Source: a virus. From it: a DNA stretch of 29,799 bases. The stretch is taken from positions 1 through 29,799 of the IMG/VR virus record IMGVR_UViG_3300042367_000627. The stretch is one strand, 5' to 3'. The position numbers were made by a program, and so were the translations under genes. Below the pieces are notes generated by a model. That model was not told the DNA's origin, ran no database searches, and saw nothing but the letters and a program-made list of their open reading frames with translations. Positions 8,345 to 29,259 of this stretch are shown piece by piece; position 1 is the first letter of the stretch; every line of letters begins with the position of its first letter.

Positions 8345-8365
8345 TGTAAAGACGAACGCTTTACA
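8345..8365. promoter_or_regulatory. Inverted-repeat operator candidate of the toxin-antitoxin operon
   Basis: TGTAAAG (8345-8351), a 7-base spacer and CTTTACA (8359-8365) form a perfect inverted repeat 33 bases upstream of the antitoxin start. The area is AT-richer than its surroundings. Ribbon-helix-helix antitoxins repress their own operon by binding such repeats over the promoter. A minus-strand TTGTAA within this region could act as a -35 element, but the -10 box is not clear. Binding is inferred. Confidence 0.6.
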
Positions 8366-8419
8366 AATCAATCCCGGACCATCGGAAAGATGGGACCGAA
8401 AGGAAAAGGTCCATTCATC

Positions 8420-9759: not shown

Positions 9760-9760
9760 C

Positions 9761-12700: not shown

Positions 12701-13741
12701 TGCGTCCGGCAGGACCGCGAGGCCTATGATCTGCCGCCGGGCGAGCCGCGCCTGGCATCCATCGCGCGCCCGGTGGTGTTCGGCGCGCCTGTGGTCGAAT
12801 TCATGGACCTGCCACAGCTTCGCGAGGACGTGCCCGCGCATCGCCCGTATCTCGCCGCCGATGCCGCCCCGTGGCCGGGCGCGCTGGGCGTGTATCGCAG
12901 CCCGGCGCTGGACAGCTTCGCCTTTCTGACCGGCGTCGACGGTCGCGCGCGAATGGGCAAGCTTGCCTCGGACTTTTATCCCGGCCCCGTGAGCATCTTC
13001 GATCTGGGCAACTCGGTGCTGGTCGATCTGACCTATGGCACGCTCGGCAGCGTGACGGATCTCGATGTGCTGGGCGGGGCGAACGCCTTCGCCCTGGAAA
13101 GCGGGCCGGGCACCTGGGAAATCCTCCAGGCTGCGACCGCCGAGCTGGTCTCGCCGGGGCGCTACAGGCTCTCGCGGTTCCTGCGCGGGCAGCGCGGCAC
13201 GGAAACTGCGATGGGCAACCCCGCGCCCGTGGGCGCGCGGATCGTGGCGCTGGACGATCTGATCGTCCCGCTGCCCATCGCCGAGGCGGAGATCGGGCTG
13301 GCCTGGAACTGGCGCGTTGGCCCGGCCTCGCGCGGCGTCAGCGATCCGACCTACACGGGCCAGGCGTTCACCCCTGCCGGGCGCGGCCTCGTGCCCTTCG
13401 CCCCGGTGAATATCGAGCAGCCCTGGCGCACCGGGCGGGTGCCGGGCGACCTGACGATCCGCTGGGTCCGGCGCTCGCGCGATCTGTCCTCCGACTCCTG
13501 GGAAATCGGCGAGCCGCCGCTGGCCGAGACGGTGGAGGCCTGGGAGGTGGAAATCCGGGACGGCGCGGCCCTCAAGCGCACGCTTTCCTCAGGCACGACC
13601 TCCACCCTCTACAGCGCCGCAGCGCAGATCGCCGACTTCGGCGCGGTCCTCGGACCCGGCCAGTCCTTCACCGTCCGCATCTACCAGCTATCCGCCCGGC
13701 TCGGGCGAGGCACGCCTGCAATCGTCACCCTGTTCACCTGA
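9761..13741 (+). pseudogene. GTA g15-like tail tip/host specificity protein, interrupted by an amber codon
   Basis: One frame runs from ATG 9761 to 13741 (1326 residues) except for TAG at 10697-10699, codon 313. The N-terminal part has a glycine-rich hydrophobic stretch, then LPRLFGRMRLGGNIIWATDF and the TEYLYYSSFAVALCEGPI motif of tail tip proteins. After the stop come VTQIDGRPVYGGTPSDASIV and a glycoside-hydrolase-like TIM barrel (FYPFVMMDIPPGN; WFTEIGCPAIDRG), then Phage_tail_3-like and C-terminal beta domains. In relatives these are one protein forming the megatron-like tip that contacts the host. TAG is one base from TGG, which would give W-SVGGL as I recall in homologues. Unless the codon is suppressed or reinitiated, the tip protein is not made whole. 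The codon could also be a sequence error. Confidence 0.8.
10697..10699 (+). other. In-frame amber stop codon in the tail tip gene
   Basis: TAG splits an otherwise continuous frame whose two halves belong to the same protein family. The downstream piece has no convincing ribosome site before its first candidate start (GTG 10736). Confidence 0.8.
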
Positions 13742-13752
13742 GGGGGCCTCCC

Positions 13753-15129
13753 ATGCCGAACCCGACCAGCAACCTCGCGCTGCCGCAAATCCTGTCGGCG
13801 CAGGCGCAGAAGCACGTCACCCACAACGACGCCCTGCGCCTCCTCGACGGGATGGTACAGATCGGCGTCCTGAGCCGCGTTCTGACCACGCCACCGGGAT
13901 CTCCGACAGACGGCGACCGCTATATCGTGGCCAGCGGTGCGACGGGCCTCTGGACAGGCTGGGACCTCAATGTCGCCTTCTGGACCGACGGCGCATGGCT
14001 GCGCCTCGTGCCCCGGCGCGGCTGGGTCGCCTGGAGCGTGGCGGACGCAGGCCTCTACGTCTGGAACGGTACCGCCTGGACGCCGGTCGGCGGCGGCATT
14101 TCCGACGGCGACAAGGGCGATATCGTCGTGTCGGGCGGCGGCACGGTCTGGACTCTCGACCCGGCGGCGAACGCTGTCCTGAACCGCCTCGGCCTCGGCG
14201 GGGCAACCCCGGACGCCACCAACCGGCTGTCGGTCAACGCGCCTGCAGCCCTGTTCAACAACGCCGGAACCTCGTTCCAGATGGTGCTGAACAAGGCGGC
14301 GGCGGCGAACGATGCGCTCCTCGTGTTCCAGACCGGATTCAGCACGCGGGCGATCTTCGGCACCGGCGGATCGGACGACTTCACGCTCAAGGTCAGCCCG
14401 AACGGATCGACCTTCTACGACGCAATGATCGCGGACCGGACCTCGGGCCGCGTCCGTTTCCCCGTGGGCCTGGCACTTGACGGTCTCGCCGCCGATCCGG
14501 CGTCTCCCGCCGACGGGTTCGTCTGGTTGAACAGCACCGCCGGGCAGTTGCGCGCGCGGCTCGGCGGGATCACACGCTCCCTGGCGGACGAGGATATCCC
14601 CTGGCTTTCACCGGTCGCGGGGGATTTCCTGCTGACGACCAGCGGCGCGGGTGGGGCGGCACCCGGCACGCTTGCGGGCGTGGCCAACCAGTTCGACCTG
14701 TTCCCCTTCAGCCCGCGCGCCGACGTGACGCTCGACCGGCTGGCGATCAACTGCACCGGGGCAGTCGCTTCGGCCTTGGCAAAGATCGCGATCTATACCT
14801 CCGACGCGAACGGCCGCCCCGACCAGCGCCTGACCGAGACCGGCGATCTGGACTGCTCGGCCACCGGGACGAAACTGGCGACGGTGTCGCTGACCCTGCG
14901 GCGGGGCACGGTCTACTGGATCGGTGTGCGGCACAATTCGACCGCCACGCTCTCCGCCTGGGCCGCGACCGCGACCCCGGACATCAACGGCGGGGCCATC
15001 GTCCCGACGGCCCGCAAGGTGCTGCGCCGGACGCTGACCTATGCGGGTGCCGCGCCCGCCAGCTGGGCCTTCGTCTCAAGCGAGATCAACGCAGGACCCG
15101 CAACCGCCGTCTGGCTGCGTGCGGCATGA
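13753..15129 (+). CDS. DUF2793 domain protein, probable tail fibre/receptor-binding protein
   Basis: This 458-residue protein starts 11 bases after the tail tip gene. The first ~110 residues (NLALPQILSAQAQKHVTHNDALRLLD, then GDRYIVASGATGLWTGWDLNVAFWTDGAWLRLVPRRGW) are a clear DUF2793 domain, common in Rhodobacteraceae phages and gene-transfer-agent-like regions. The rest is a series of beta-rich segments, with a middle FNNAGTSFQMVLNKAAAANDALLVFQ block and a C-terminal domain containing AKIAIYTSDANGRPDQRL. Placed after the tip protein, it probably forms a fibre or spike that recognises the cell surface. Specificity cannot be predicted. Confidence 0.75.
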   Translation: MPNPTSNLALPQILSAQAQKHVTHNDALRLLDGMVQIGVLSRVLTTPPGSPTDGDRYIVASGATGLWTGWDLNVAFWTDGAWLRLVPRRGWVAWSVADAGLYVWNGTAWTPVGGGISDGDKGDIVVSGGGTVWTLDPAANAVLNRLGLGGATPDATNRLSVNAPAALFNNAGTSFQMVLNKAAAANDALLVFQTGFSTRAIFGTGGSDDFTLKVSPNGSTFYDAMIADRTSGRVRFPVGLALDGLAADPASPADGFVWLNSTAGQLRARLGGITRSLADEDIPWLSPVAGDFLLTTSGAGGAAPGTLAGVANQFDLFPFSPRADVTLDRLAINCTGAVASALAKIAIYTSDANGRPDQRLTETGDLDCSATGTKLATVSLTLRRGTVYWIGVRHNSTATLSAWAATATPDINGGAIVPTARKVLRRTLTYAGAAPASWAFVSSEINAGPATAVWLRAA

Positions 15130-15163
15130 CCGATTGCCCTATCCCTTCCCGAAGGAGACGCCC

Positions 15164-15538
15164 ATGACCGAACGCCCTGATCTGATCAACTGGCTCTGGA
15201 CCGAGCCGGGCAAGGCCGCCCTCGCCGGAGCGCTGGGCGGAATCGTGCGCTGGGTGACCCTGCGCGAGCACTGGCGCGACGGCGTGCTGTCGCTGCTCGT
15301 CGGCTCCATCTGCGCCGTCTACCTTGGCCCGCTCGTCGCCCCGATCCTCGAGCCGGTGATCGGCAAGCTGGCCCCGGGCGGCGACAGCGCCGGGTTCTCG
15401 AGCTTCGTCGTCGGCATCGGCGGCATGTCGATCTCGGGGCTGATCATCGACATCTTCCGCGCCCGGCGTGCCGACACTGCCAGGACCCGCCCCAGCAATA
15501 CCGATACCGGCCGGAAGGACGACGATGCGCAGTCGTGA
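15164..15538 (+). CDS. Holin-like small membrane protein
   Basis: This 124-residue protein starts at ATG 15164 with GAAGGAG upstream. Hydrophobic stretches at about 17-31, 41-62 and 78-98 could form three membrane spans, and a charged C-terminal tail (RARRADTARTRPSNTDTGRKDDD) follows. That is the layout of a class I holin. It lies directly before a tiny membrane protein and the amidase endolysin, so a role in opening the inner membrane at lysis is likely. I recognise no named family, and the function rests on topology and context. The last 14 bases overlap the start of the 31-residue gene. Confidence 0.55.
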   Translation: MTERPDLINWLWTEPGKAALAGALGGIVRWVTLREHWRDGVLSLLVGSICAVYLGPLVAPILEPVIGKLAPGGDSAGFSSFVVGIGGMSISGLIIDIFRARRADTARTRPSNTDTGRKDDDAQS

Positions 15539-15620
15539 CCTGCCCGCCCTTCTCCGCCGCGAGGGCCGGGTCTGGCTCGTCGCCCTCGCCTGCGGCGTGG
15601 TGCTGTTCCTGATCCTCTGA
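15525..15620 (+). CDS. 31-residue single-span membrane peptide in the lysis cassette
   Basis: ATG 15525 is preceded by GGAAGGAC and lies inside the end of the holin-like gene in another frame. The product has a basic N-terminus (MRSRDLPALLRREGR) and one hydrophobic span (VWLVALACGVVLFLIL) running to the stop. Good ribosome site, overlap coupling and the charged-then-hydrophobic layout support a real gene despite its size. It might be a holin partner or another lysis accessory. It lacks a lipobox and coiled coil, which argues against a spanin. Confidence 0.55.
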   Translation: MRSRDLPALLRREGRVWLVALACGVVLFLIL

Positions 15621-15649
15621 ACCGCACCCGCTTTCCAGTTCTACACCCC

Positions 15650-15671
15650 GCCCGCCGTTGGTGGGCTTTTT
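15650..15671 (+). terminator. Rho-independent terminator-like hairpin before the endolysin
   Basis: GCCCGCC (15650-15656), loop GTT, GGTGGGC (15660-15666) pair over seven positions with one G-T pair and are followed by TTTTT. It ends the tail/holin transcription unit or attenuates into the endolysin, whose ATG lies 15 bases downstream. Confidence 0.6.
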
Positions 15672-15685
15672 CATGGAGACGACCG

Positions 15686-16147
15686 ATGATCGAACCCCCG
15701 ATGATCCTCCAGGGTGCTGCCCGATACCCTGTGCGCGAGATCATCCTGCACTGCAGCGCCACAAGGCCGGACTGGCTGGGCGCCTCGTCCCTCACTGCCA
15801 AGCGCGCGGAAATCCGGCGCTGGCACATGCAGGACCGCGGCTGGCGCAATATCGGTTACCACTGGCTGATCGACTTCGACGGCCAGCGCGCACCCGGCCG
15901 CCTCGAGACCGACATCGGCGCGCATGTCGTGGACCACAACCGCGGCACGATCGGCATCTGCCTGATCGGCGGGCACGGGGCCGATGCCGACGACAAGTTC
16001 GCCGAGCACTTCAACTCGGCGCAGGCACGAACGCTGCGTGCGCTGATCGCCGATATCCGCAACCGGACGCAGATCGCCAGGGTGACCGGCCACAACGACT
16101 ATGCCGCGAAAGCCTGCCCGGGCTTTCGCGTCTCGGGCTGGATTTAG
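15686..16147 (+). CDS. N-acetylmuramoyl-L-alanine amidase endolysin (T7 lysozyme-type, Amidase_2)
   Basis: This 153-residue enzyme cuts the bond between muramic acid and L-alanine in peptidoglycan at the end of infection. The zinc ligands are visible as His22 (LHCSATRP), His136 (TGHNDYAAKACPGF) and Cys144. Tyr58 (NIGYHW) and Lys142 match the T7 lysozyme catalytic Tyr46 and Lys128. There is no signal peptide, so export to the wall would depend on a holin, in line with the membrane proteins on both sides. The start has GGAGA nearby. Length and motif spacing are normal, so it should be active. Confidence 0.9.
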   Translation: MIEPPMILQGAARYPVREIILHCSATRPDWLGASSLTAKRAEIRRWHMQDRGWRNIGYHWLIDFDGQRAPGRLETDIGAHVVDHNRGTIGICLIGGHGADADDKFAEHFNSAQARTLRALIADIRNRTQIARVTGHNDYAAKACPGFRVSGWI

Positions 16148-16243
16148 GTCCGCCCAACAACCCCCGCCCTTCCCTGACCCGACCCTAACCCGCGGCGCGG
16201 TGCCGACGGGCCTGGCGCACCCGCGCCCTGAAAGGAGACTTTG

Positions 16244-16432
16244 ATGTTGTCCACAATCGACGGATACAAGACTTACCTCGTGATGGCCGCCCTGCTGGCG
16301 GTCGTCGTACTGGAGAAGGGCCTCGGCCTGGACGTCCCCGGCGTGGCCCTCGGTGAAGACTGGATGCTCGTGGTGATGAACGCCATCGGCCTCGGCACCC
16401 TGCGCCACGGCATCCAGAAAAGCGGGTTCTGA
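16244..16432 (+). CDS. Small membrane protein of the lysis region
   Basis: This 62-residue protein starts at ATG 16244, six bases after AAAGGAG; a TTG one codon earlier is less likely. It has two hydrophobic stretches (residues 10-24, YLVMAALLAVVVL, and about 40-53, WMLVVMNAIGLGTL) joined by a glycine-rich loop. Small two-span proteins of this kind often follow the endolysin gene in Rhodobacteraceae phages. It could be a second holin or antiholin. No family is recognised. Confidence 0.6.
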   Translation: MLSTIDGYKTYLVMAALLAVVVLEKGLGLDVPGVALGEDWMLVVMNAIGLGTLRHGIQKSGF

Positions 16433-16465
16433 CCTACCCGCAAGCACATCCGCTCCGCATCACAG

Positions 16466-16495
16466 CGCCCCCTCGGTTCCGCCGGGGGGGCGTTT
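16466..16495 (+). terminator. Strong GC-rich hairpin closing the lysis operon
   Basis: CGCCCCCTCGG (16466-16476) pairs with CCGGGGGGGCG (16482-16492) over 11 positions with one G-T pair and a 5-base loop. It is followed by only three T residues, so termination is probable but not certain. Confidence 0.5.
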
Positions 16496-16529
16496 GCGCA
16501 TGCGGCCCTTCCCATCATCGAGGCCCGGG

Positions 16530-18039
16530 ATGACCAAGCCCTTCACCTATCTCAGCGTCTGCAGCGGGATCGAGGCGGCCTCCGTCGCCTGGAAGCCGCT
16601 CGGCTGGCGGCCGGCAGCCTTTTCCGAGATCGACCCCTTCGCCTGTCATGTGCTGGCGCACCGCCAGCGCGCGACGCGACCGATGTTCATGCCGGACCCC
16701 GCCGCTGCCCCCGGCTTTGTCGAACGGCGCAAGCGGATGGCCGCGATCAAGGCCGTCGCCGGGCTGCCCCTTCCAGGCACTCCGAACCTCACCCCGAACT
16801 TCGGCGATCTCGAAGCTTACAGGACCTGGCCCGATGCAGCTTTCGATCTTCTCGTTGGTGGAACCCCTTGCCAGTCCTTCAGCGTCGCCGGATTGCGAAA
16901 GGGACTGGACGATCCGCGCGGCAACCTGGCCCTCGTCTATCTGGGCGTGGCTGACCGATACCGGCCCCGTTGGCTGGTGTGGGAGAACGTGCCCGGTGTC
17001 CTGTCATCGGGCAAGGGACGGGATTTTGGTGCCTTCCTCGGGGGTCTGGGCGAACTCGGGTATGGCTGGGCTGACCCGAGTGCTGGACGCTCAATACGTG
17101 CGAACATGCCGCTTCCCCGGCGCCGTTCCCCAACGGCGGCGACGTGTGTTCGTTGTCGGATATCTTGGAGACTGGCGACCTGCCGCGGCGGTTCTTCTTG
17201 ACGCCGAAAGCCTGCGCGGGAATCCTCCGCCGGGCCGTCGGTCGCGGCAAGACGCTGCCCCCACCCTTGCAGCGCGCCCTTCAGGCGGTGGCGGGCTTGG
17301 TACCGACTTCGATCTCGACGGCGGGCTGATCCCGGCGGTGTCAAGCGCGCTGGCCGCGCGGGATGCCAAGCTGCCGAGGGCCGAGGACAATGTCGGGATC
17401 ATCGCCGTCGCTCATGCGCTTCGAGGGACCGGGTTCGACGCGAGCGAAGATGGGACGGGGCGCGGCACGCCGCTGGTGCCCATCGCCTTCTCCGCCAAGG
17501 ACTACGGCGCCGACGCAGGCGACACCGCCCCAACCCTCCGGGCCATGGGCCACGCCGCGAGCCACGCCAACGGCGGCGGTCAGATCGCCATCGCGATGCA
17601 GGAACGCGCCGTCAGCGAAAACCTCGCCGCCGGGCCGGATGGGGCCGGGTTCCGCCAGGATGGCGCGGCCTACACGCTCGAGGCCCGGACCGTCCCGCAA
17701 GCGGTGGCCTTCGATCTGCGTGGCCGCGACGGCGGTGCCATGCTGGAGGGCCCGCACGACACGGCGAACCTCCGCGCCGCGTCCGGTGGGTCGTCCCGCA
17801 GCTATGTGGCGCAGGAGGCTGACCCGCTGATCTGGGCGGTCCGGCGGCTCACACCGCGCGAATGCGAGCGCCTGCAGGGCTTCCCCGACGACTACACCGA
17901 CGTTCCCTGGCGCCGCCGGAACTGGACCCCAGACGGGCCACGCTACAAGGCGCTGGGCAACAGCATGGCGGTCAACGTGATGGGCTGGCTGGGGGAGAGG
18001 ATTGAGGGATTTGTGACTCAGGTTTCGGAACGCGATTAA
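16530..18039 (+). pseudogene. C5-cytosine DNA methyltransferase, split by a frameshift
   Basis: Frame one begins at ATG 16530 with motif I (YLSVCSGIEAASVAW), the catalytic PCQ motif (Cys114 in GGTPCQSFSVAG) and WENVPGVLSS (motif VI). Near 17067-17080 the conserved reading passes to another frame, which continues RVLDAQY, PQRRRRVFVVGYLGDW (motif VIII), a long target-recognition region and the C-terminal blocks RRLTPRECERLQGFPDDYT and ALGNSMAVNVMGWLGERI. One extra base explains the break; without it the protein would have about 502 residues. Phage-borne orphan methyltransferases of this type protect phage DNA from host restriction. As it stands, the catalytic and recognition parts are separated, so the gene is probably inactive, unless the extra base is an error. 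Confidence 0.85.
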
Positions 18040-18199
18040 GAGGCCAGCACTTCGGGGCGGGTTATCCATTCAACTGAGTTTCTTTCCCGGTTGAATCCCC
18101 AACTACCCGGCAGCACCAAGCTGCCCCAAGCCACTTCTCCGAAAGTCATCAATAAACTCTGAGACCGGGTCGACTCCGCTTACCATCACGTGATCCCTA
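18040..18199. other. Short intergenic stretch with a possible truncated minus-strand gene end
   Basis: No complete gene is present. On the minus strand, bases 18199 to 18103 read VSGVDPVSEFIDDFRRSGLGQLGAAG and then a stop. This could be the C-terminal end of a gene cut off by the IS5-type insertion at CTAG 18197-18200. The fragment is too short to identify. Confidence 0.25.
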
Positions 18200-18538
18200 G
18201 GGTCAGGACCCATTGAACTTGCTCTGTCGGCATGATTCAGACTCGGCAAGGAGACCGAGCAATGAGCAACCTTTTCTGGCTGACGGACGCGCAGATGGCG
18301 CGTCTGGAACCCTTCTTTCCCAAGAGCCATGGCAAGCCATGCGTCGATGACCGACGGGTGCTGAGCGGGATTATCTTCATCAATCGCAATGGTTTGCGGT
18401 GGTGTGATGCGCCCCGGGTATGGCCCGCCGAAGACTCTCTACAACCGATGGAAGCGGTGGGGCGACAAGGGTATCTTTGCCCGGATGATGGAAGGTATGG
18501 CGGCAGAAGCGGCTGTTCCGAAGCCGGTGATGATCGAC
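18200..18538 (+). mobile_element. IS5-family insertion sequence remnant (left end only)
   Basis: The left end begins at GGGTCAGGACCCATTGA next to a CTAG that fits the usual target of related IS5-group elements. It contains the transposase start and breaks off at 18538, where IS256-type sequence begins. No right end is present. Confidence 0.7.
18262..18538 (+). pseudogene. IS5-family transposase, frameshifted and truncated
   Basis: ATG 18262 follows a GGAGA ribosome site. The protein begins MSNLFWLTDAQMARLEPFFP and continues VDDRRVLSGIIFINRNGLRWCDAP, typical of the N-terminus of IS5-group transposases. After that the family sequence (YGPPKTLYNRWKRWGDKGIFARMMEGMAAEAAVPKPVMID) continues in another frame, consistent with a two-base deletion near 18415. 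It stops at the first catalytic Asp region at 18538. The DDE catalytic core is missing, so the element cannot move by itself. Confidence 0.8.
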
Positions 18539-18688
18539 ATAGCCCATATGCGCCGTCAGTTCGGCCCCAAGCATGCGCTCCATCAGCCGGACCTTCAGTT
18601 CCTTCATCAGCCTTGAGTCGCCCAACAGGTCTTCAGGCCGCTTGCAGCCCTTCAGCAATTCGTCCAGCAGTTCGTTCGAAATCGTCAT
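18539..18688 (-). pseudogene. IS256-family transposase N-terminal fragment
   Basis: Fifty codons remain: MTISNELLDELLKGCKRPED, then LLGDSRLMKELKVRLMERMLGAELTAHMGY. This is the conserved start of IS256 (Mutator-like) transposases. The frame then crosses the junction into antisense IS5 DNA. No catalytic residues are left. Confidence 0.8.
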
Positions 18689-18750
18689 TGTCCTTGCTCC
18701 TCTCAGGAAGCATGGACCAGATCACAGATACACAGAAGGCCGGACACTCT
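18539..18750 (-). mobile_element. IS256-family insertion sequence remnant (one end)
   Basis: On the minus strand this starts with a terminal-repeat-like GAGAGTGTCCGGCCTTCTGT near 18750-18730 and runs into the transposase N-terminus. It ends abruptly at 18539 against the IS5 fragment. The outer boundary is approximate. Confidence 0.65.
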
Positions 18751-18931
18751 CCACCCGCGTTTCCGAAAGTCAATCAATACGGGTCGTGTATTGGACCAAA
18801 TTGGACCGCGCCGGGATCACTGCGCGGCATCCTACATCAATCGTTGGGACTCGGCCAACCCTCTTGATGCGGAACAGTAGACTTGGCTGCATTCTCGATT
18901 GATCGAGCCACCTGCTCTGCATCCCAACAGC
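18751..18931. other. Intergenic stretch between IS scar and glycan cluster
   Basis: No confident gene is seen. A short + strand reading (ASYINRWDSANPLDAEQ, stop near 18870) could be the end of a lost gene. The glycosyltransferase on the minus strand ends at 18932. Confidence 0.3.
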
Positions 18932-19657
18932 TTACCCGCTGACTTGGTCTGTGTCAGGCCAAGGGACGCCCGACACGCGGTTCACTAACTCCATCTGTGA
19001 TCCGCTACGCGCACGTTTGAAATGCATTGTACCCGGCACAGGTTTGTGTGGGAAACCCGCTTGCAGCGTTACGACATTCCAGTGCCAGTCCTCGTGCCCG
19101 AATCCCAGCCGCAGGTCATTGGCACGGAACGGAAAGCGGAGGTGGAGGTCGGTCCGTGCGATCGTCAGCGCGTCCCAGCAATTGGTCCAGCTCAGATAAG
19201 CCGCATCAAAGAGCGCGGTCTCGGAATCGGTGTGCCACCACAGCAACCGCTTGCGCCCGAACACCAGATTGCACGCGGAATGGGCCACAACGTCAGGCCG
19301 TGCCTCGATGAGCGCGTGCCCCGCTACAAGCCAGTTGCGCGACCACAGGTCATCTGCATCGAGGAAAGCAACTGTCCGGCCGACTGCGGCGGCCACCCCG
19401 CGATTGCGCGCGCCGCCTGGGTCGCCCTCGTCCGTGGCCAGAAAGCGGGCGCGATCACCGAGTGCGGACCGCAGAACACGAGCAGTCAATTCATCGGCCC
19501 GGTCGAGCACTACAACCATCTCGACGTTCAGACTATTCGCGGCCGCCTCGGCCATAGCCGCCTCGGCGCTGCGGGCCGATTGTGCGGCGATCAGCCCCTC
19601 ACGATGCGCGGTAATGATAACGGTGATATCGACAGGATCGCTCGAAGCAGCGCTCAT
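18932..19657 (-). CDS. Family 2 glycosyltransferase
   Basis: This 241-residue protein has a GT-A fold pattern: DITVIITAHREGLIA (nucleotide-binding strand), then GARNRGVAAAVGRTVAFLDADDLW, with the metal-binding DAD near residue 102. A later FGHEDWHWNVVTLQAGF contains the ED motif expected near the catalytic base. It should transfer a sugar from a nucleotide donor to a growing glycan on the cytoplasmic side; donor and acceptor are unknown. It overlaps the upstream GT4 gene by four bases, so the two form an operon. The C-terminus is short and lies next to the IS scar, so a slightly trimmed end cannot be excluded. Confidence 0.8.
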   Translation of the reverse strand: MSAASSDPVDITVIITAHREGLIAAQSARSAEAAMAEAAANSLNVEMVVVLDRADELTARVLRSALGDRARFLATDEGDPGGARNRGVAAAVGRTVAFLDADDLWSRNWLVAGHALIEARPDVVAHSACNLVFGRKRLLWWHTDSETALFDAAYLSWTNCWDALTIARTDLHLRFPFRANDLRLGFGHEDWHWNVVTLQAGFPHKPVPGTMHFKRARSGSQMELVNRVSGVPWPDTDQVSG

Positions 19658-21258
19658 GATCCGATCTCCGCCACGGCCCGGTCATAGGTGGTACCATCAT
19701 GGTTGGCTGCGATGCGACGCTGCAGTGCTGCGGCACGCTCTTGGCGCGCACCGGGGTCCGCCAGCATCGACCGCAACGCCGCCTCGTAGCCTGCGAGGCC
19801 CGCTTCCGGATCGACCGGCCATCCGGTCCTGCTGTCGATGAGTTCCGGCACACCCCCTACGGCACTGGCCACGATCGGCATACCCATCGCTCCGAGCTCG
19901 ATCAGGATTGTCGGCAGGCCGTCCCAGTCAGAAGTGTACAGCCAGCCGTCGGCATCCTTCATGGGCAGCTGGGCATACTTCGAGAAGGGCGGGTTCAGTC
20001 GCAAGTTCGGGGGCAGACCCGACAGGTCCGGTGGCGTGTCAAGGACCGCTTTACCCCAAGCATCGAAATCAACGTCGGGCATCGCTCGCGCCAGGTCGAT
20101 TACGATGTCGAACCGCTTCTGGCGGTCGAGACGCCCGCCCCAGAGGACCCGGGGCCGCAATCGGCCAGCACGGCGGTCAGCCTGCACTTTAGCAAGCGTA
20201 CCATCTGCCACCGGGGTCAGAGCTGGCGTGTAAACGGTTCGAACCCGTGCGGCGAGATCGTCGGGTAGACTGTACCGCCCCGTAAGAGACCGCGCGAGAT
20301 CGGCGGTGTCAAAGATAGCCGCCGTTAGATGCGGCAGAATGTTGGCGAAGTACCAGACCGGATAGCCCACCTCGTTTCCCGCGGAGTCCCGGTCGGCACA
20401 GAAATAATAGGCATATAGTTGGGACTGTACTGCAAGGCGCGCACCGTAATGCACGAGCATATCGAAGCCGAGACGGCTATTCACATTCCAAACGCGCCTC
20501 GCACCGAGTTCACGCAGCAGCATGTAGAGAGCACGCGGCCGGTCCGACAGCTTCGAGAATTCGGCCGAGATGTCGATGGCCGGGGCCGTATCGGGATACC
20601 AGTCGGGCCGGTCCCAGTCGGACAGGTCGGTCCGCAGGATCAAGGTGCGGCCCTGCCGCACCAGTGCCCCGGCCAGAATCCCGGCCACCAGATCTGCTCC
20701 GCCGAGCTTGCCGAAAGGGACGAGCACAACCGAGTCGTAGGGGCCTGCCGGAATAGACGCTACAGCCTTGCGGAAATGGGCATATTCGCCATCATGCCAG
20801 GGTGGCAGGAAACCCGGCTCGTATCCGTTCAGCGATCCCACCTCAGGCTCGATCTGCGCGGCACATGCGATGAGGGCATACATCTCGGCCGAACCACAGA
20901 AACTCTCCATCTCCGCCTGTGTCGCACGGGCGTTGGACTCGCGTGTCACTGCCGCAAGATAGGTCTCATGCCACTCGGGATGCACCTGGAAGAACAGCGG
21001 TCTGGGCGTCGCGCTCGGCGCCAGAGCCCCGGTCGGAGCCGCAGCCTCGCGTGCGTCGCCCATCACGCGACCAATCGAGGTACGCTCGCGGCGCTTGCGA
21101 CGAGAGTTGCGGTAGCGCGCGATCACATCTCGTGGAAAGTCACGTACCTTCCCCGCAAGCTGCCGCAGAAGCCAATTGGTCTTGCGGCTCTTACGCTCGT
21201 GCTCGGCGAGGGCTGCGCGCAATACGGAAATATCGTCGTTTGGGTCCACGAAACTCAT
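19654..21258 (-). CDS. Family 4-like glycosyltransferase with N-terminal extension
   Basis: This 534-residue protein starts with a charged coiled-coil-like region (LRAALAEHERKSRKTNWLLRQL; RNSRRKRRERTS). A middle domain contains YDSVVLVPFGKLGGADLVAGIL, the donor-independent half of a GT-B fold. The C-terminal half shows RPRVLWGGRLDRQKRFDIVIDLARAMPD and DWDGLPTILIELGAMGMPIVASAVGGVPELI, the GT4 nucleotide-sugar binding region with its conserved glutamate. It likely adds a sugar to a surface glycan or glycoprotein. It is translationally coupled to the GT2 gene. No strong ribosome site is visible at the start. Confidence 0.8.
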   Translation of the reverse strand: MSFVDPNDDISVLRAALAEHERKSRKTNWLLRQLAGKVRDFPRDVIARYRNSRRKRRERTSIGRVMGDAREAAAPTGALAPSATPRPLFFQVHPEWHETYLAAVTRESNARATQAEMESFCGSAEMYALIACAAQIEPEVGSLNGYEPGFLPPWHDGEYAHFRKAVASIPAGPYDSVVLVPFGKLGGADLVAGILAGALVRQGRTLILRTDLSDWDRPDWYPDTAPAIDISAEFSKLSDRPRALYMLLRELGARRVWNVNSRLGFDMLVHYGARLAVQSQLYAYYFCADRDSAGNEVGYPVWYFANILPHLTAAIFDTADLARSLTGRYSLPDDLAARVRTVYTPALTPVADGTLAKVQADRRAGRLRPRVLWGGRLDRQKRFDIVIDLARAMPDVDFDAWGKAVLDTPPDLSGLPPNLRLNPPFSKYAQLPMKDADGWLYTSDWDGLPTILIELGAMGMPIVASAVGGVPELIDSRTGWPVDPEAGLAGYEAALRSMLADPGARQERAAALQRRIAANHDGTTYDRAVAEIGS

Positions 21259-21468: not shown

Positions 21469-23979
21469 ATGATGACCCCAACGCTAGATCCGTCCGCCAA
21501 TCCCGAGTTCGCGGCCATTTGGGCGCGAGTGCAGCCCTTCACAATGACCACCGTCGAACGCGGCTTTGCGCTGTGGACTGCGGTGAACACGGTTGTGGAC
21601 AACGGCATTCCGGGCGGTTTCGTCGAATGCGGTGTCTGGCGGGGCGGTTCATCGATGTTGATCGCCTTGACGCTGCTGGCGCGCGGCGAGGCACATCGCG
21701 AGCTGTTCCTGTTCGACACCTTCTCGGGGATGAGTTCGCCGGGCCCCCACGACTTGGACCTCAACGGCGTGGCTGCGTCCGATCTGATGCAGGGCTCCCA
21801 CGGGCCTGAGGTTGCCGAACTGGTGCGCGCCGAGGCGCCGATCGAGGCGGTGCGGACCGCAATGGAGCAGACCGGCTACGACATGCGCTTGGTGCGTCTT
21901 GTCGAGGGCGACGTGGCTGAGACGCTGCCGCGGGTCCAGACCCTGCGCATCGCTCTCTTGCGCCTCGACACCGACTTCTACGACAGCACCATGGCCGAGT
22001 TGCGCCACCTCTACCCGCGCCTGACGCGGGGCGGAATCATGATCATCGACGACTATGGCCATTGGAAAGGCGCGAAGCGAGCGGTCGACGAGTATTTCGC
22101 GGACACCGCCAGCGGCTACCTCCGACCCATGCTCTGGTCGATCGACTACACCGGACGCGGCGCGGTCAAGGTCGAACCGGACGAGAACGTCGAGATCGAA
22201 CGTTACGACTATCTTCCGCCGGGCATTGACCCGCCCGACCTGCTTGGCCAGTTCCCCGACGCCCGAGCCGAAAATCCCTGGGCGGTGAACTGGCCGTATC
22301 TGCGCCCCGAGGTGCCACATGTCTGGCGGTCTGACATACGCAACGACACGCCCTATGTGACCGGCAACGCCTCGGTCGAGGAGGCCGCCTGCCTTTGGGC
22401 GCTTGCCCGCCAGTTCGCCGGGCGGCGCGGGCTGGAAATCGGCAGCCATTACGGCTGGACCGCAGCGCATCTGCTGGCAGCGGGACTGGAGCTTGATTGC
22501 ATTGACCCGGAGTTCTTGCGCGAGGTGCGCCTTCGGCAAGTATCGGAAGCGCTCGACCGGGTGCAGGATGGGGGTAGCTACCGCCTTTGGGGCGGATTCT
22601 CGCCCGCGATCCTGCCCGAGGTGCGCGCCAGCCGCCCCGAACCTTGGTCTTTCGCCTTCATCGACGGCTCGCATGACGGTACTGCCCCGGCTGACGACGC
22701 GTGCGGGGTTCTGCCGCATTTGGCACCGGATGCGGTTGTCGTCTTCCATGACTTGACCTCGCCGCATGTCGAAGCTGGGCTTGCCATCTTCCGCGACGCG
22801 GGCTTCCAGACGCGGCTGTTCAACACGATGCAGGTCCTCGGCGTGGCTTGGCGCGGTGCCGTGCAGGTGTTCGACCATGTGCCCGACCCGAACATCGCAG
22901 CAGTGACAATTCCCCATCTCGAAAAGTATCTCCGGCGGGAGGACGCCAGTCGCGAACGCGCCCAAGGGCCAGAACAAGAGGACAACCCGATGAGTTCAGA
23001 CGGACGCAATCTGATCGACCGTCTCGTGGGCAGACGGGAGCCGCCGCCCAGCCCGGCGGAGGTAGCCGTACCGACCGCGGTGGTCCGGCCGCGCGCCGTG
23101 GACGCTCCGCCAGCTCAGACCCCTGTCTGGGAGAATCTGGTCTGCCTCAACTCGGACGTAGAGCCTGCCTTCTCCCTGCTTGCACCCGCCGCCGCGCATC
23201 GTGCGACCGACGCGCGGCTGGTTGACTGGGATAGCCTCGGTTACAGCGCCGCTCTGAAGCGTGACACCTGGCCCTTGCCCGAGACCGCCGACCGCGAGGG
23301 TTATTACGGCCCCGATCATTTCAGCTACTGGGCCAGCGGCCTGCTGGATGCCCGCTACCTTCTGGAGGCTGCTGCTGCCCATGGCGTGGCCGATCCGGGC
23401 TGCTTTCTCGATCTCGGTTGTGCCTCGGGCCGTTTGCTGCGGCACATGGCCCTGGAGCGGCCCGGGATGCGCGCGCTCGGCTGTGACATCAACCGCCTGC
23501 ATGTGGAATGGTGCAACCGCCACCTTCCACCCGGCTGCACCGTGTTCCAGAACCACTCGATCCCGACATTGCCTCTGCCCGACAACTCGGTGGATATCGT
23601 CTCGGCCTACAGCGTCTTCACGCACATCGAGGCGCTCGAGACCGCCTGGCTGATGGAACTGCGCCGCATTCTGCGCCCGGGCGGGATCGCCTGGATCACA
23701 GTGCACAGCGAACTGACATTGCAGGACATGACGCCCGACTGGCCGCTCTGGAACCCGGTGATGCTGCACCCCGAAGCGGCAACGAAGCTTGACGCAACCC
23801 GCGCTTTCGTCGGAGACCGGATGGTACTGCGCTGGCGGTCGGACCGATCCTATTCATCCAACGTGTTCTACAAGCTGGATTATATACGTACTACCTGGTC
23901 ACGTCTATTCGAGATCGCCGAGGTTCGCCGCAGGTTCCCGTCTTTTCAGGACGTCCTGATCCTGCGTAAGCCCGGCTGA
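21469..23979 (+). CDS. Triple-domain methyltransferase fusion (TylF-like + two class I SAM domains)
   Basis: This 836-residue protein starts at ATG 21469 (or the next codon), shortly after AGGGA. Domain 1 (about residues 25-215) resembles TylF/MycF sugar O-methyltransferases: GGFVECGVWRGGSSMLIALTL, LFDTFSGMSSPGPHDLD, and LRLDTDFYDSTMAELRHLYP with IIDDYGHW. Domain 2 (about 300-480) has GLEIGSHYGWTAAHLLAAG, FIDGSHDG and VVFHDL of a Methyltransf_24-like fold. Domain 3 (about 600-820) is a classic class I methyltransferase: FLDLGCASGRLLRHM, ALGCDIN, DIVSAYSVFTHIE, LRPGGIAWITV. A proline-rich linker joins domains 2 and 3. It probably methylates several hydroxyls of a surface glycan. Three methyltransferase folds in one chain is uncommon. 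Confidence 0.85.
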   Translation: MMTPTLDPSANPEFAAIWARVQPFTMTTVERGFALWTAVNTVVDNGIPGGFVECGVWRGGSSMLIALTLLARGEAHRELFLFDTFSGMSSPGPHDLDLNGVAASDLMQGSHGPEVAELVRAEAPIEAVRTAMEQTGYDMRLVRLVEGDVAETLPRVQTLRIALLRLDTDFYDSTMAELRHLYPRLTRGGIMIIDDYGHWKGAKRAVDEYFADTASGYLRPMLWSIDYTGRGAVKVEPDENVEIERYDYLPPGIDPPDLLGQFPDARAENPWAVNWPYLRPEVPHVWRSDIRNDTPYVTGNASVEEAACLWALARQFAGRRGLEIGSHYGWTAAHLLAAGLELDCIDPEFLREVRLRQVSEALDRVQDGGSYRLWGGFSPAILPEVRASRPEPWSFAFIDGSHDGTAPADDACGVLPHLAPDAVVVFHDLTSPHVEAGLAIFRDAGFQTRLFNTMQVLGVAWRGAVQVFDHVPDPNIAAVTIPHLEKYLRREDASRERAQGPEQEDNPMSSDGRNLIDRLVGRREPPPSPAEVAVPTAVVRPRAVDAPPAQTPVWENLVCLNSDVEPAFSLLAPAAAHRATDARLVDWDSLGYSAALKRDTWPLPETADREGYYGPDHFSYWASGLLDARYLLEAAAAHGVADPGCFLDLGCASGRLLRHMALERPGMRALGCDINRLHVEWCNRHLPPGCTVFQNHSIPTLPLPDNSVDIVSAYSVFTHIEALETAWLMELRRILRPGGIAWITVHSELTLQDMTPDWPLWNPVMLHPEAATKLDATRAFVGDRMVLRWRSDRSYSSNVFYKLDYIRTTWSRLFEIAEVRRRFPSFQDVLILRKPG

Positions 23980-24006: not shown

Positions 24007-24774
24007 TCAGCCCCCGGGTGTGACATGCGCCGTCAGGGCGTCAGGATACGCGGCGTGCAGGTCCAGCCAGCCGGGCGCAAGATCCTCGTCCATATCGTGC
24101 AGGTCCTTCCAGCGGCGGTAGATGCCGTCAATCTCGGTCATAGGCCGCCATTTCGCCGCAGGAAGCTCACGCCCGAACAGACCACTCATTTCGCCTGTGA
24201 ACTGGACCGGCACGAATGTCCCTTCGCGGGCCGGTTTGGGCGGCTGCTTGAAAGAATGCATCCACTGGTTGACGATCTGTCCCAGGCTGTAGCCGCAAGC
24301 AACCAGTAGTGCACCTTCGTTCCCGGCACTCATTTCTGCCGAAACAGAGCGCGGGCGCCGTTGGTCGCGCGTCAATTGATCCAGAAGGATCGCGTCTCCA
24401 CCTTCCAGATCGCATTTCAGGTAATGCGGCACGCCATGGGCATCGAACAGCGAGGCCAAGTCTATGGTATCGACTTCGATCCGTACGCTCTGCTGCACAC
24501 CCTTCTGAGCCGTGGCCTGGTCCAGACTGCCCCAATCGTCCTTGCCCGGCACCGTGTAGAAGGCCACCTTCCGCCCCGGCTCATGATAAAGCGCCTTGTT
24601 TATGATGGTGAGCCTCGCGCCGAAGGCGGCAAGCCTGTCCCTGCACAACTCGGCCAGGCGCGGGCCGGCTTCGATCCCCACCACACGGAAGCCCTTGTTC
24701 AGGTAGAACTCTGCATCGAAGCCTTTGTGCAAACCCAAATCGAAAATCAGGTCGCTTTCGACATTCTGAGTCAT
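24007..24774 (-). CDS. FkbM family methyltransferase
   Basis: This 255-residue protein begins with SDLIFDLGLHKGFDAEFYLNKGFRVVGIEAGP, the SAM-binding motif I and acidic motif II of FkbM-type enzymes. It also has VDTIDLASLFDAHGVPHYLKCDLEGGDAILLDQL, the KxDxEG-like signature of that family. Such proteins O-methylate sugars or other hydroxyls in surface polysaccharides and natural products. It is convergent with the triple methyltransferase (27 bases between stops) and lies upstream, on the same strand, of nothing else in this cluster. Its acceptor is unknown. Confidence 0.85.
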   Translation of the reverse strand: MTQNVESDLIFDLGLHKGFDAEFYLNKGFRVVGIEAGPRLAELCRDRLAAFGARLTIINKALYHEPGRKVAFYTVPGKDDWGSLDQATAQKGVQQSVRIEVDTIDLASLFDAHGVPHYLKCDLEGGDAILLDQLTRDQRRPRSVSAEMSAGNEGALLVACGYSLGQIVNQWMHSFKQPPKPAREGTFVPVQFTGEMSGLFGRELPAAKWRPMTEIDGIYRRWKDLHDMDEDLAPGWLDLHAAYPDALTAHVTPGG

Positions 24775-24864: not shown

Positions 24865-25991
24865 TCAGTCCCGCTTTGCAGGTGCTGCCCGGCGCAGGAT
24901 CGCCGTGCGGGCCGGCTTTTCCACAAAATGATGCAATGCCGCCCCTGCAAGAATGCAGACTGGAAAAACCACAAGCGGCGAAGCCGGCTCGATCCTGCTT
25001 TCGACCGCGGCAAGGAAAAACGCCTTCATGATGATCTGGTGCACCATGTACAGCGAGAAACTGATCTCGCCCAGCCAGACCAGCGGCTGGCGCGACAACA
25101 GCCACCCCAGCGGACCGCGTCCCGCAGCGACAGCGACGATCAGCCCGGCGCAGACCAGACACGAGGCAGAACTCTTGTACCACTGCTCGGCCAGAACTGA
25201 ACCCTGCGCCAGTGCCTGGCCAGCCCAGAAGCCCGACAGCGCCCACCAGACGATGACCAGCACGGCTGCGGTTTCCAGACCAGTCGCAGCCGCCCGCCCG
25301 ATCACGCGCCTGTTGAGTGTCTGCCACATCACATACGACGCCATTCCCAGCACGAACTCGAAACCGCGGAACAGTGGCGAGGAATAGGCAAGGAACATCA
25401 CGCTCAGGTCCTGCGGATCCGAATAGGCCGGGATTTCGAACAGAGCGAACAGGGCACCATAGGCCCCGATAATGGCGGCGAACAGCGCAAGCTTCCACGG
25501 CCAGGTCCGGTGGATGTCCTTCAGCAGCAGCGGAAACATCAAGTAGAAGAACCACTCCGTCGATATCGACCAAGACGGTGAGTTCCAGGAGAACACATAG
25601 TTCACATACGGCACGATGCTGTGCAGAAGGAGGATGTTCGCCACCAGCACAAGGCGGGGATCGAAGAACCCCTCGCCCGGAAGCTGGCGCGAATCCGGGC
25701 GCAGAAGGACAAAGACGAGGACCAGCGTCACCAGATGCACCGGCCAGAGCCGCGCGGCCCGGGCCAGCAGGAACCGCCCGGTGCCGGTCGGACGCGCCGA
25801 ATAGACATGCGTCAGGATAAAGCCCGACAGAACGAAAAAAAGCTCACACCCTGCGAGTAAACTCCCACGCGCGCGAACTCGCCCCAGGGGAACAGGCCTT
25901 GGGTGTGGTGCAGCAGAATCATGAACGCCGCGGCAAAACGCAGGGACGTCAGGGGTCGCAGGTCGCTTGGCGTGTTCTGGCGATTGGGCAC
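24865..25991 (-). pseudogene. Membrane acyltransferase (OafA/YrhL-like, Acyltransferase_3), frameshifted in a homopolymer
   Basis: The gene starts at GTG 25991 with GGGGAGGA upstream and reads VPNRQNTPSDLRPLTSLRFAAAFMILLHHTQG, the RxxAxxxVxxxH-like start of this family. At a run of seven T residues (complement of A 25835-25841) the frame is lost: GVSFF is followed by a premature stop. With one more T it continues FVLSGFILTHVYSA, then joins the long downstream frame (MHLVTLVLVFVLLRP and many membrane spans, NSPSWSISTEWFFYLMFPLLL, EISFSLYMVHQIIMKAFF) to 24865. The repaired protein would be about 375 residues with roughly ten spans. Such enzymes O-acetylate or otherwise acylate surface glycans. 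The break may be a phase switch, slippage, a true mutation or a sequencing error. Confidence 0.8.
25835..25841 (-). other. Seven-base homopolymer at the acyltransferase frameshift
   Basis: A run of seven A (T on the coding strand) lies exactly where the family sequence changes frame. Adding one base restores the gene. Such runs can vary by slippage. Confidence 0.7.
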
Positions 25992-26177
25992 GGCAAGTCC
26001 TCCCCGGATCGACTCAAGCCTGATATCGGTCGTCAGCCCGGTCGGCAAGCAAGGCGCGCGGGTCGGGCTCGGCAGATTTTTCGCCGTGGCGCAGTAATCC
26101 CTTTCTGCTATAGGCTCGGTCGGGGCCCGCTCTTGGCAGCACGGGCATGGTTCCAGGGTCCAGAAACGGAGCGCGCT
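25992..26177. other. Divergent intergenic region between acyltransferase and glycosyltransferase fusion
   Basis: This 186-base region must hold promoters for both directions. TATAGG at 26109-26114 resembles a rightward -10 element; the -35 is weak. No other structure is seen. Confidence 0.35.
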
Positions 26178-28268
26178 TTGAAGCTTAGCATCTGCATCCT
26201 GAGCGGTACCGACTCGGACGCGGTGATGCGGTGCCTGACCGAGTTGCGCGGCCAGAACCTTCCGTTTGCGAATGAACTGCTCATCGCCAGCCAGGCCGGA
26301 GTGTCGGAAGGGGCGGCACCTGTTCCTGGGGCAGTGCTGCTTCCCCATACCCGCGGCGCGGCTGCGGCGATCCGACTCGCCGCAACACGCGCAAACGGCG
26401 AAATGATCGCCGTGATCGATCCATATCTTCAGCTGATCGACCCGTTCAAACTGGTCAAGCAGGTCGACTGGCTCGACCGTAACCCTAAGGCGGGCGGGTG
26501 CCTTCACCCAGTGGCTGGGGTTGAAGGGGCATGTCGACTGGGCGTCAAACCCGAATATCTAACCGCGGAAATGCTTCTTGCTTCCCGGTCCGACGTGGCA
26601 CTCGGCAGTCTTGTCTTTCACAGGGCTGCCGTGGCCCATCTGCCCGACTGGTTTGACGCGACAGACAGCCCCGGATGGGCGTTGGCCTTTCTGTTAGCCT
26701 CGGGTCCGGGACTTTGGTGCTTGCCCCACGCTATGGCGACAGCCACAGCTCAACCTCGGGAAGACGCAGGATTTCTGGCCGCCGCCATGCTCCGGTTGGA
26801 TGCGGACCGCGACGCCCTCCTTGCAGAGCGCTCAGACCTTCGTTCGGCCTTAGCTGAAACGCGCAGTCATCCCTTTCGGACCCTCAGAGCATTGGCATCC
26901 TTTTATGCTCTGTCGGCGCTGACGCGCGCCTCACCTCCGCTACCGGCCCGGATGGCGACCCGAATGGCAAAGAGCGCGGTCAAGCGCGACCCGGAACGGT
27001 CGCTGCGCGCCGTTGGGTCCGATCATACCGTACATGGGTCGACTGCAAATTCCGGCGCCGCGCGACATGCGGGACGACCGTCCAATACGGCAAGGCCCTC
27101 AATAATGATCGTAACGCACGACGCCAGCCGCACCGGTGCCCCGATCCTGGCGCTGAACCTCTGCGAGGCACTATCGGCACGCTACAACGTCATCGTCTTC
27201 GCCCTGCGCGACGGTGAGTTGAGGCCACTGTTCCAGAAGCATGCAACCGAAGTGATTGTGCCCGCGCGTTACTCCCGCGACGGTAAGACCTACACCAAGC
27301 TTGTTGCCGAGGCGGCGCGCCGCCACGGGCTGTGCTTTGCCATCGTCAACAGTCTCGAGTCGGTCGCGGCACTGGGGCCGTTGAGGCGAGCAGGAGTCCC
27401 AACAATCAGCTTGGTGCACGAGTTTGCGGCCTACACCCTGCCGCGATCGCTTTTCGCCGAGGTCGTCGCCCTGTCCGACGACACGGTGTTCTCTACCGAA
27501 CTCACGCTTGAGGATGCGCGAACATTGGCCTATCTTCCGGAAGACGCGCGGTTGCATGTCATACCGCAGGGCAAGAGCACCGTTCCTCCTGCGGCAGGGA
27601 ACGCCGATGCCGCAGCTCGGGACGCCGAACGTGCCTGGTTATGCACTGCCATGCGCCCCGATGGCATCATTCCTGACCCCTTTTTGGTGTTGGGTGCCGG
27701 CACGGTGCATCCACGCAAGGGTCTTGATCTGTTCCTCGACTGCGCCGCACGTGTGATGGCAAGCGCCGAAGGGCAAAGGTTTCGCTTTGTCTGGATCGGG
27801 CATGGTTACGCACCTGAGACCGACATGAACTATTCCGCCTATCTCGCCGACCAGATCCGGCGCACCGGCATGGGTCGGCAGATCGCTATTCTGCGCCAGA
27901 CTGCTGAAATCGAGACGGCTTACCGCCTCTCCGATCTGTTTCTTCTGTCGAGCAGACTCGACCCGCTACCAAACGTAACAATCGATGCGCTGACGGTCGG
28001 CCTGCCTGTGTTGTGTTTTGATCGGACGACTGGTATCGCTGAGCATCTGGCGGAGGAGGGTTTGGGAACGGACTTGGTTGCGCCCTACCTCGACACCGCT
28101 GCCATGGCTGGACGCATCGAGGATCTTGCCCGCGACCCGGGGATGCTGCAGCGCGTTCGAGACCGCTGCCGCGAAATGGCCGCCCGGCGCTTCGATATGC
28201 CGACCTATGTGCGGCAGATCGAGGCGCTCGCGAAGGCAGCACTAGAGCGGCGCGGAGAAGGGCTGTGA
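26178..28268 (+). CDS. Two-domain glycosyltransferase (degenerate GT2-like + GT4)
   Basis: The most plausible start is TTG 26178 with ACGGAG upstream, giving 696 residues that begin LKLSICILSGTDSDAVMRCL; the open frame continues upstream without family sequence. The N-terminal part (about 1-210) is GT2-like but has IDPYLQ where a DxD is expected, so it may not be catalytic. A helical linker (ALLAERSDLRSALAETRSHP) follows. The C-terminal GT-B domain (about 310-690) has IMIVTHDASRTGAPILALNL, VLGAGTVHPRKGLDLFLDCA and SSRLDPLPNVTIDALTVGLPVLCF, typical of GT4 enzymes. It probably adds a sugar to the cluster's glycan. The epimerase gene follows on the same strand. Confidence 0.8.
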   Translation: MKLSICILSGTDSDAVMRCLTELRGQNLPFANELLIASQAGVSEGAAPVPGAVLLPHTRGAAAAIRLAATRANGEMIAVIDPYLQLIDPFKLVKQVDWLDRNPKAGGCLHPVAGVEGACRLGVKPEYLTAEMLLASRSDVALGSLVFHRAAVAHLPDWFDATDSPGWALAFLLASGPGLWCLPHAMATATAQPREDAGFLAAAMLRLDADRDALLAERSDLRSALAETRSHPFRTLRALASFYALSALTRASPPLPARMATRMAKSAVKRDPERSLRAVGSDHTVHGSTANSGAARHAGRPSNTARPSIMIVTHDASRTGAPILALNLCEALSARYNVIVFALRDGELRPLFQKHATEVIVPARYSRDGKTYTKLVAEAARRHGLCFAIVNSLESVAALGPLRRAGVPTISLVHEFAAYTLPRSLFAEVVALSDDTVFSTELTLEDARTLAYLPEDARLHVIPQGKSTVPPAAGNADAAARDAERAWLCTAMRPDGIIPDPFLVLGAGTVHPRKGLDLFLDCAARVMASAEGQRFRFVWIGHGYAPETDMNYSAYLADQIRRTGMGRQIAILRQTAEIETAYRLSDLFLLSSRLDPLPNVTIDALTVGLPVLCFDRTTGIAEHLAEEGLGTDLVAPYLDTAAMAGRIEDLARDPGMLQRVRDRCREMAARRFDMPTYVRQIEALAKAALERRGEGL

Positions 28269-28344
28269 CTGAGGCGAGGCGCGCCTTGCAGAGTTTTCTG
28301 AAAAACAAGAAGGTTTGCCCGGACGATGCAAGGGGAGTGACAGA

Positions 28345-29259
28345 ATGAAAGTTCTGGTTCTGGGAGGAAACGGATTCATCGGATCGCATGTGGTAGATGC
28401 CCTGCTGCGGCAAGGCCATTCGGTCCGAGTATTTGATCGCCAGCCGGAGCAGTTCCGTGCGTCACTGAAGGACCTCGATTACCGATTCGGCAGCTTCGCG
28501 GACCGGATGGCGCTGAATGATGCGCTGGCGGGCACTGAAGCTGTGCTGCACCTTGTAAGCACCACCTTCCCGGGCACGGCTGATCTCGATCCGCGGACAG
28601 ACGTTCAGGACAACCTCATGAATACGATCGGGCTGCTGGACTCAATGCAGAGCCTTGGAATCCGGCGCCTCCTGTTCCTGTCCTCAGGTGGCACGGTCTA
28701 CGGCATCCCAGAAACCATCCCGATACCGGAAAACCACCCACTGCGGCCAATCAACTCCTACGGCATCGTCAAGGTCGCCATCGAACATTACCTTGAAATG
28801 TACCGCAGGACGCGCGGCCTTTCGCCGGTGATCATCCGCGCCTCAAACCCTTACGGTCCGCGTCAGGCGCATGTTGGTGTGCAGGGCGTAATCTCGACCT
28901 TCCTGCGACGAGTGAAGGCCGGCGAAGCAATCGAAGTCTGGGGTGACGGCAACATCCTGCGCGATTACGTCCATGTGGCCGACCTTGCCGCGCTTTGTGT
29001 GACCGCGGTTTCGGGGTCGGTCGAGGGAACCTTCAATGCTGGCAGTGGCGCTGGTGTGACGGTGAACGAGATCATTGCGCGCGTGGTCGAGGCGACCGGA
29101 ATCGCAGTCGTACCCGTCTACAAGCCGGGCCGCGCCATCGACGTACCGCGTTCTGTACTGGACGTGCGTCGGGCGGAAGAAGTGTTCGGTTGGCGTGCGA
29201 AGACTGGCCTGCGTGATGGAATTGCCGAGACATGGGATTGGCTTGGCACCCAGCCCTGA
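28345..29259 (+). CDS. NAD-dependent sugar-nucleotide epimerase/dehydratase (GalE-like SDR)
   Basis: This 304-residue protein is taken from ATG 28345, seven bases after AGGGGAG; an upstream in-frame ATG at 28315 has no such site. It has the Rossmann motif GGNGFIGSHVV (residues 7-17), FLSSGGTVYG with the catalytic Ser near 114, the Tyr139-x3-Lys143 pair (SYGIVKV) and the NPYGPRQ substrate-binding segment. It also shows WGDGNILRDYVHVADLA, common to extended SDR epimerases. It likely supplies a nucleotide sugar to the neighbouring glycosyltransferases. UDP-glucose 4-epimerase is one possibility, but other 4-epimerases or dehydratases are not excluded. Confidence 0.88.
   Translation: MKVLVLGGNGFIGSHVVDALLRQGHSVRVFDRQPEQFRASLKDLDYRFGSFADRMALNDALAGTEAVLHLVSTTFPGTADLDPRTDVQDNLMNTIGLLDSMQSLGIRRLLFLSSGGTVYGIPETIPIPENHPLRPINSYGIVKVAIEHYLEMYRRTRGLSPVIIRASNPYGPRQAHVGVQGVISTFLRRVKAGEAIEVWGDGNILRDYVHVADLAALCVTAVSGSVEGTFNAGSGAGVTVNEIIARVVEATGIAVVPVYKPGRAIDVPRSVLDVRRAEEVFGWRAKTGLRDGIAETWDWLGTQP

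Follow-up and report, generated by a model that had tools for sequence, protein, structure and literature searches.

The 836-residue gene studied here is probably a stop-loss fusion of a bi-domain and a single-domain sugar methyltransferase, which would multiply methylate a surface glycan. It lies in the window, a stretch of 29,799 bases from a virus record, as a single open frame of 836 codons plus a stop on the plus strand (positions 21469–23979). An alternative GTG start at 21364 is possible for this frame. Our alignment shows that the relative from genome G360 begins near the equivalent of 21469.

Pfam identifies TylF at residues 23–212, Methyltransf_24 at 322–428, and Methyltransf_11 at 647–742, all above the curated cut-offs, which bears out the original prediction of three domains in one 836-residue frame. 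A chance open frame was rejected, as the three domains lie far above these cut-offs. The SAM motif expected in each domain is also borne out by conservation among relatives: both the SAM-binding and the cation-site residues are conserved in all three domains, and the loss of SAM-binding residues from two domains, which had been raised as a counterargument, was not found. We then used a full-length structure model, one of the checks suggested at the outset. It contains three confidently modeled domains, with residues 500–568 at a pLDDT below 50, and its pTM of 0.41 says nothing on the relative placing or packing of the three. Both the model and structure matches assign each domain to the class I Rossmann type. 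The idea of three different folds was therefore rejected; the TylF, Methyltransf_24, and class I domains belong to three families that share one Rossmann-like fold.

Domain 1 (residues 1–251; 21469–22221, plus strand) is a TylF-family O-methyltransferase according to PF05711, structure matches, and phmmer. PF05711 covers residues 23–212 with 148.9 bits against a cut-off of 23, and the motifs include CGVWRGGS (54–61), LRLDTDFYDST (164–174), and IIDDYG (192–197). The best structural matches are the sugar O-methyltransferases NovP, SpnH, and MycF with Z scores of 25–27, and phmmer matches 4cdz and NovP. The GVWRGG loop and the D-x-D ... DD residues, which we take to be the Mg sites of NovP and SpnH, align with those two enzymes and are conserved in the aligned relatives. 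MeT1 from Mycobacterium hassiacum and COMT-type enzymes align with domain 1 as well. Pfam, sequence, and model all place it in the TylF/MycF/NovP/SpnH family (PF05711). However, the solved members of this family are single-domain proteins of antibiotic pathways, whereas domain 1 is joined to a Methyltransf_24 domain and lies in a glycan cluster.

Domain 2 (residues 252–490; 22222–22938, plus strand) is a Methyltransf_24/COMT-like O-methyltransferase, as defined by PF13578, the ends of its relatives, and its fold. PF13578 covers residues 322–428 with 96.7 bits against a cut-off of 26.3. The motifs are GLEIGSHYGWTAAH (321–334), FIDGSHDG (397–404), and VVFHDL (424–429). All eight aligned sequences keep a glycine-rich SAM loop, an acidic residue following strand 2, and the D/H-D residues that presumably form a COMT-like cation site. 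Structure comparison returns COMT-type O-methyltransferases at a Z score of about 17, consistent with a COMT-like class I fold. The top PDB profile match is MeT1 (6g7d, 6g80) at an E value of 3e-5; as a structure, it gives a Z score of 16.8, level with many COMT-type enzymes, and an rmsd of 3.6 over 175 residues. MeT1 is a mycobacterial methylmannose 1-O-methyltransferase, a sugar enzyme of a polysaccharide cluster (PMC9883506). It is a single-domain protein only 22% identical to domain 2, and the match does not imply the same substrate. A stand-alone domain 2 with 67% identity is present in Neorhizobium (L003).

Domain 3 (residues 553–836; 23125–23979, plus strand) is a general class I SAM methyltransferase, defined by PF08241 and by a homologue in genome G961. 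PF08241 (Methyltransf_11) covers residues 647–742 with 57.6 bits against a cut-off of 21.2, and the motifs are LDLGCASG (647–654) and GCDIN (671–675). The D and both G residues of the D-x-G-x-x-x-G loop are invariant in all seven aligned sequences, and the conserved part is 68% identical to the stand-alone G961 gene. A Pro/Ala-rich N-terminal extension, predicted to be disordered (residues 508–552; 22990–23124, plus strand; pLDDT about 30–39), precedes the domain and starts at its own ATG. Domain 3 of G961 and G360 is likewise extended N-terminally, and the other relatives begin near VWENL.

TylF and Methyltransf_24 form a conserved pair: seven genomes (G001, G1144, G048, G052, G385, G095, and G360) have an intact bi-domain open reading frame, with 48–63% identity to the window in domain 1 and 47–66% in domain 2. 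Pfam, run on all of them but G052, finds both domains in each of the six scanned. Neorhizobium and G961 were left out of this count, as domain 1 is missing or broken there. Genome contigs yielded 76 loci when scanned, and almost all of these have just one TylF domain; in one of the loci, a Granulosicoccaceae MAG (L002, genome G001), domains 1 and 2 are fused. A whole-genome search gave matches in 9 of 390 genomes at an E value of 1e-40. Further searches gave 1 of 196, 2 of 195, 1 of 385, 3 of 394, 1 of 195, and 2 of 143, with overlapping sets and differing cut-offs. Two candidates per genome were scored in the searches of 390, 385, and 394 genomes, from which the absence of domain 3 is not to be inferred.

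A close relative of domain 3 is its own open reading frame in all six genomes where one was found (G001, G095, G360, G259, G894, and G961), a count that excludes G219, where the relative is distant (35% identity) and fused to another methyltransferase domain. In G360, domain 3 is convergent with the bi-domain gene and some 40 bases distant; in G001, the two are on opposite strands, roughly 1.2 kb apart; and in G095, domain 3 is on a different contig, which lacks the glycosyltransferases. The proposed search for the same domain order elsewhere returned no other three-domain version: none was seen in one frame among the 76 loci or the overlapping sets of 390, 196, 195, 385, 394, 195, and 143 genomes, nor among the plasmids, phages, or IMG/VR contigs searched. 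Plasmids gave only partial relatives: 28 records, each with a query coverage below 80%. A TylF gene is followed by a weak match resembling domain 3 in L028, L037, and L051, which come from three distant bacteria. Because close domain-3 relatives are separate genes in all six genomes, the triple architecture appears from these comparisons to be a private fusion of neighboring genes and not a conserved enzyme.

The G961 locus (L106) has the same order and strand as the window in an unfused form. Remnants of domain 1 (8175–8539) and domain 2 (8614–9311), both frameshifted, are followed by an intact domain 3 (9348–10313). The last stop behind the domain-2 remnant is in the frame of domain 3, and two codons separate it from the ATG of domain 3. 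The neighbors are homologues of the FkbM (61% identity), GT4a (49%), and GT2 (56%) genes of the window described below. An open reading frame that by eye resembles a transposase fragment lies just upstream of the remnants, within L106:7611–10313. The glycosyltransferases of this locus are intact, as is domain 3. Domain 3 can probably act alone, because it is intact in G961 despite dead domains 1 and 2.

Next, we examined the junction between domains 2 and 3. The window has no stop after domain 2, and about 18 codons run into the ATG of domain 3 at 22990. This read-through linker (residues 491–507; 22939–22989, plus strand) covers a stretch where most relatives have already ended: domain 2 ends at the equivalent of 488–491 in five of seven aligned relatives and at about 501 in the other two (L002 and L108). 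Model confidence is about 30–40 from residue 501 on. A Shine-Dalgarno-like AGAGGA (22977–22982, plus strand) stands 7 bases before the internal ATG with a 4-base consensus match. A match of at least 4 bases precedes 21% of 700 ATGs counted on both strands, so AGAGGA is weak evidence for a ribosome site. The original prediction had warned of an erroneous join near 22980. It pointed to the right place, given the ATG of domain 3 at 22990, but codon statistics favor the open frame: over the 18 codons 490–507, the log-odds are +0.6 for the open frame and −4.5 and −10.2 for the other two. By this measure there is no sign of a frameshift at the junction, with the proviso that 18 codons are few. A TGA in the +1 frame overlaps the internal ATG, and an indel artifact would use that TGA.

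The fusion gene is surrounded by genes for glycan synthesis. On the minus strand are a family 2 glycosyltransferase (GT2; 18932–19657; PF00535), with homologues beside bi-domain or domain-3 genes, and a group 1, GT4-like glycosyltransferase (GT4a; 19654–21258; PF13692, PF00534, homologues), which is divergent from the fusion gene. Downstream, also on the minus strand, are an FkbM-type methyltransferase (24007–24774; PF05050; 61% identical to the G961 gene), the fourth methyltransferase domain of the cluster, and an acyltransferase 3 with approximate bounds of 24865–26000 (PF01757 on the 24865–25740 piece). The acyltransferase gene has a frameshift near 25840 at a short T run, which may reflect phase variation, gene decay, or an erroneous base call. 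A second group 1 glycosyltransferase (GT4b; 26193–28268; PF13692, PF00534) and an NAD-dependent epimerase/dehydratase (28315–29259; PF01370; homologues in L002, L096, L098, L101, and L108) follow on the plus strand. Homologues of GT2, GT4a, and the epimerase accompany a bi-domain or domain-3 gene in L002, L096, and L101; GT2 and GT4a do so in L003, L102, L106, and L107, and the epimerase does on the 5.5 kb contig L098 and at the short locus L108. This set was not seen in L097, L099, or L103. GT2 and GT4a adjoin domain 3 in four of the six genomes with a close relative (G001, G259, G894, and G961); the G360 contig is 5.5 kb and has the epimerase only.

The left flank of the cluster is a prophage with several broken genes. 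A large tail protein (phrog_4271; 9761–13741) has an in-frame stop at 10697–10699, and the same split is present in the IMG/VR record L109; the protein is unsplit, at 1,316–1,486 aa, in relatives such as L111–L114, L116–L118, L120–L124, and L126. A C5 cytosine DNA methylase (Dcm; 16494–18039) has a frameshift near 17.1–17.2 kb, also present in L119, and is one open reading frame of about 520 aa in L110 and L115. An IS4/5-type transposase remnant (18232–18867) lies between the prophage genes and the glycan cluster. A second IMG/VR record, L119, aligns with window positions 11375 to 21258 and shares the Dcm break, the IS remnant, GT2, and GT4a. It is nearly identical to the window before 14000, 82–90% identical at 14000–16500, and 100% identical from about 17000, in every 500-base bin from there to 21258; the divergent stretch suggests recombination within the prophage. 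The gene breaks and the prophage-glycan junction are very likely real, because L119 and L109 repeat them. The fusion itself is seen in one contig only. L119, the only record repeating this flank, ends at 21258, before the gene, and L109 does not extend to it either. A phage-encoded enzyme was rejected, since the homologues are in bacterial genomes and the IS4/5 remnant stands between the prophage and the glycan genes. Furthermore, no match was found in 50,697 phage records, and only two loci in IMG/VR have TylF matches. We infer a chromosomal position in the host for the glycan cluster, next to a decaying prophage.

We propose that a conserved TylF plus Methyltransf_24 sugar O-methyltransferase was joined in frame to a class I gene directly downstream. 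The joining was most likely recent, by loss of a stop between neighboring genes of one surface-glycan locus. Stop loss could be another step of decay, because the tail protein, Dcm, IS, and acyltransferase nearby are broken. Each domain would bind its own SAM. Domain 1 would most likely carry out a cation-dependent methylation of a sugar hydroxyl, as NovP, SpnH, and MycF do; domain 2 would methylate a second position or a second sugar; and domain 3, tethered by some 65–70 flexible linker residues, would perform a third methylation. Some domain 3 may also be made alone, from its own ATG and its weak ribosome site. The three domains, the FkbM enzyme, and the glycosyltransferases would jointly build a multiply O-methylated surface glycan.

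How far the three domains work as one enzyme is a separate matter. Three methylations of one glycan, as originally suggested, fit three intact domains in a glycan cluster, but the triple architecture is private to this gene. The strongest form of that idea, in which all 836 residues are made as one protein that moves a single tethered sugar among its three SAM sites and permethylates a surface-glycan end in one visit, is tentative, and we would not expect it to hold in full. The window may instead still contain two genes in effect, with a neutral loss of the stop, domain 3 made mainly from the ATG at 22990, and the fused chain present as a by-product that is scarce or unstable. The internal ATG with AGAGGA upstream, the separate domain-3 frame in all six genomes and its survival alone in G961, and the predicted disorder of the linker suit such an arrangement. 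Yet ribosomes would meet no stop between domains 1–2 and domain 3, and a 4-base match is equalled or beaten at 21% of ATGs; we think this reading rather unlikely.

An assembly or sequencing error hiding a real gene pair, with a stop or frameshift near 22940–22990, would fit a fusion seen in a single contig, and an overlap of the +1-frame TGA with an ATG is a common arrangement of coupled genes. Other genes nearby also have frameshifts. We nonetheless consider an artifact quite improbable, as the few codons of the junction favor the open frame and the assembly looks accurate from 17000 to 21258, where the second record is identical, broken Dcm and IS included. Finally, one domain, for example domain 2, could be catalytically dead and support the others. 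Its fusion to domain 1 in all seven intact bi-domain relatives would suit a structural role, but its SAM loop, acidic residue, and D/H-D residues are invariably kept, and the Neorhizobium copy stands alone. The suggestion of a scaffold found no support, with cofactor and cation-site residues kept in all three domains, and is highly improbable. The stop-loss fusion of working methyltransferases is the reading we prefer.

Tri-O-methylfucose reportedly occurs in R. etli, and a sugar O-methyltransferase from Nocardia has reportedly been described. To our knowledge, no substrate has been assigned by experiment to a member of these subfamilies. A search of the open-access literature, including work on R. 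etli O-antigen methyltransferases and on proteins with two or three methyltransferase domains, returned no description of this fusion or of the TylF-Methyltransf_24 pair. A parallel in our genome set is the G219 protein (L103:9064–10638; 524 aa), in which a domain-3-like half, 35% identical to domain 3, follows another methyltransferase domain and adjoins a GT4-like gene; its N-terminal half, however, is Methyltransf_31/DUF1698-like and not TylF.

Chlorovirus PBCV-1 A064R similarly has several glycan transferase domains in one chain, a class I methyltransferase included, which complete a single sugar. It is a GT-GT-methyltransferase that makes one methyl transfer, and the separate A061L adds the next methyl on the same rhamnose (PMC9614988). 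The window protein instead has three methyltransferase domains, and we liken the two by architecture. Klebsiella O7 ORF6 and WbdD-type methyltransferase-kinase chain terminators also carry a methyltransferase fused to other catalytic modules (PMC11231755). Like the fusion, they place a methyltransferase module in a multi-module enzyme of bacterial surface-glycan assembly; unlike them, the window protein has no kinase or glycosyltransferase module and has three methyltransferase domains.

The conserved pair, the neighboring third gene, the unfused tandem in a related genome, and the fused copy together illustrate clearly how enzymes with several glycan-modifying domains can arise. The TylF-Methyltransf_24 pair and its glycosyltransferase neighbors are a good target in the search for new O-methylated bacterial surface sugars, which may affect recognition by phages or hosts. 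Should the chain act as one enzyme with three sites, stop-codon loss would have created it only recently, and we would be seeing an assembly line of three methyltransferases at an early stage.
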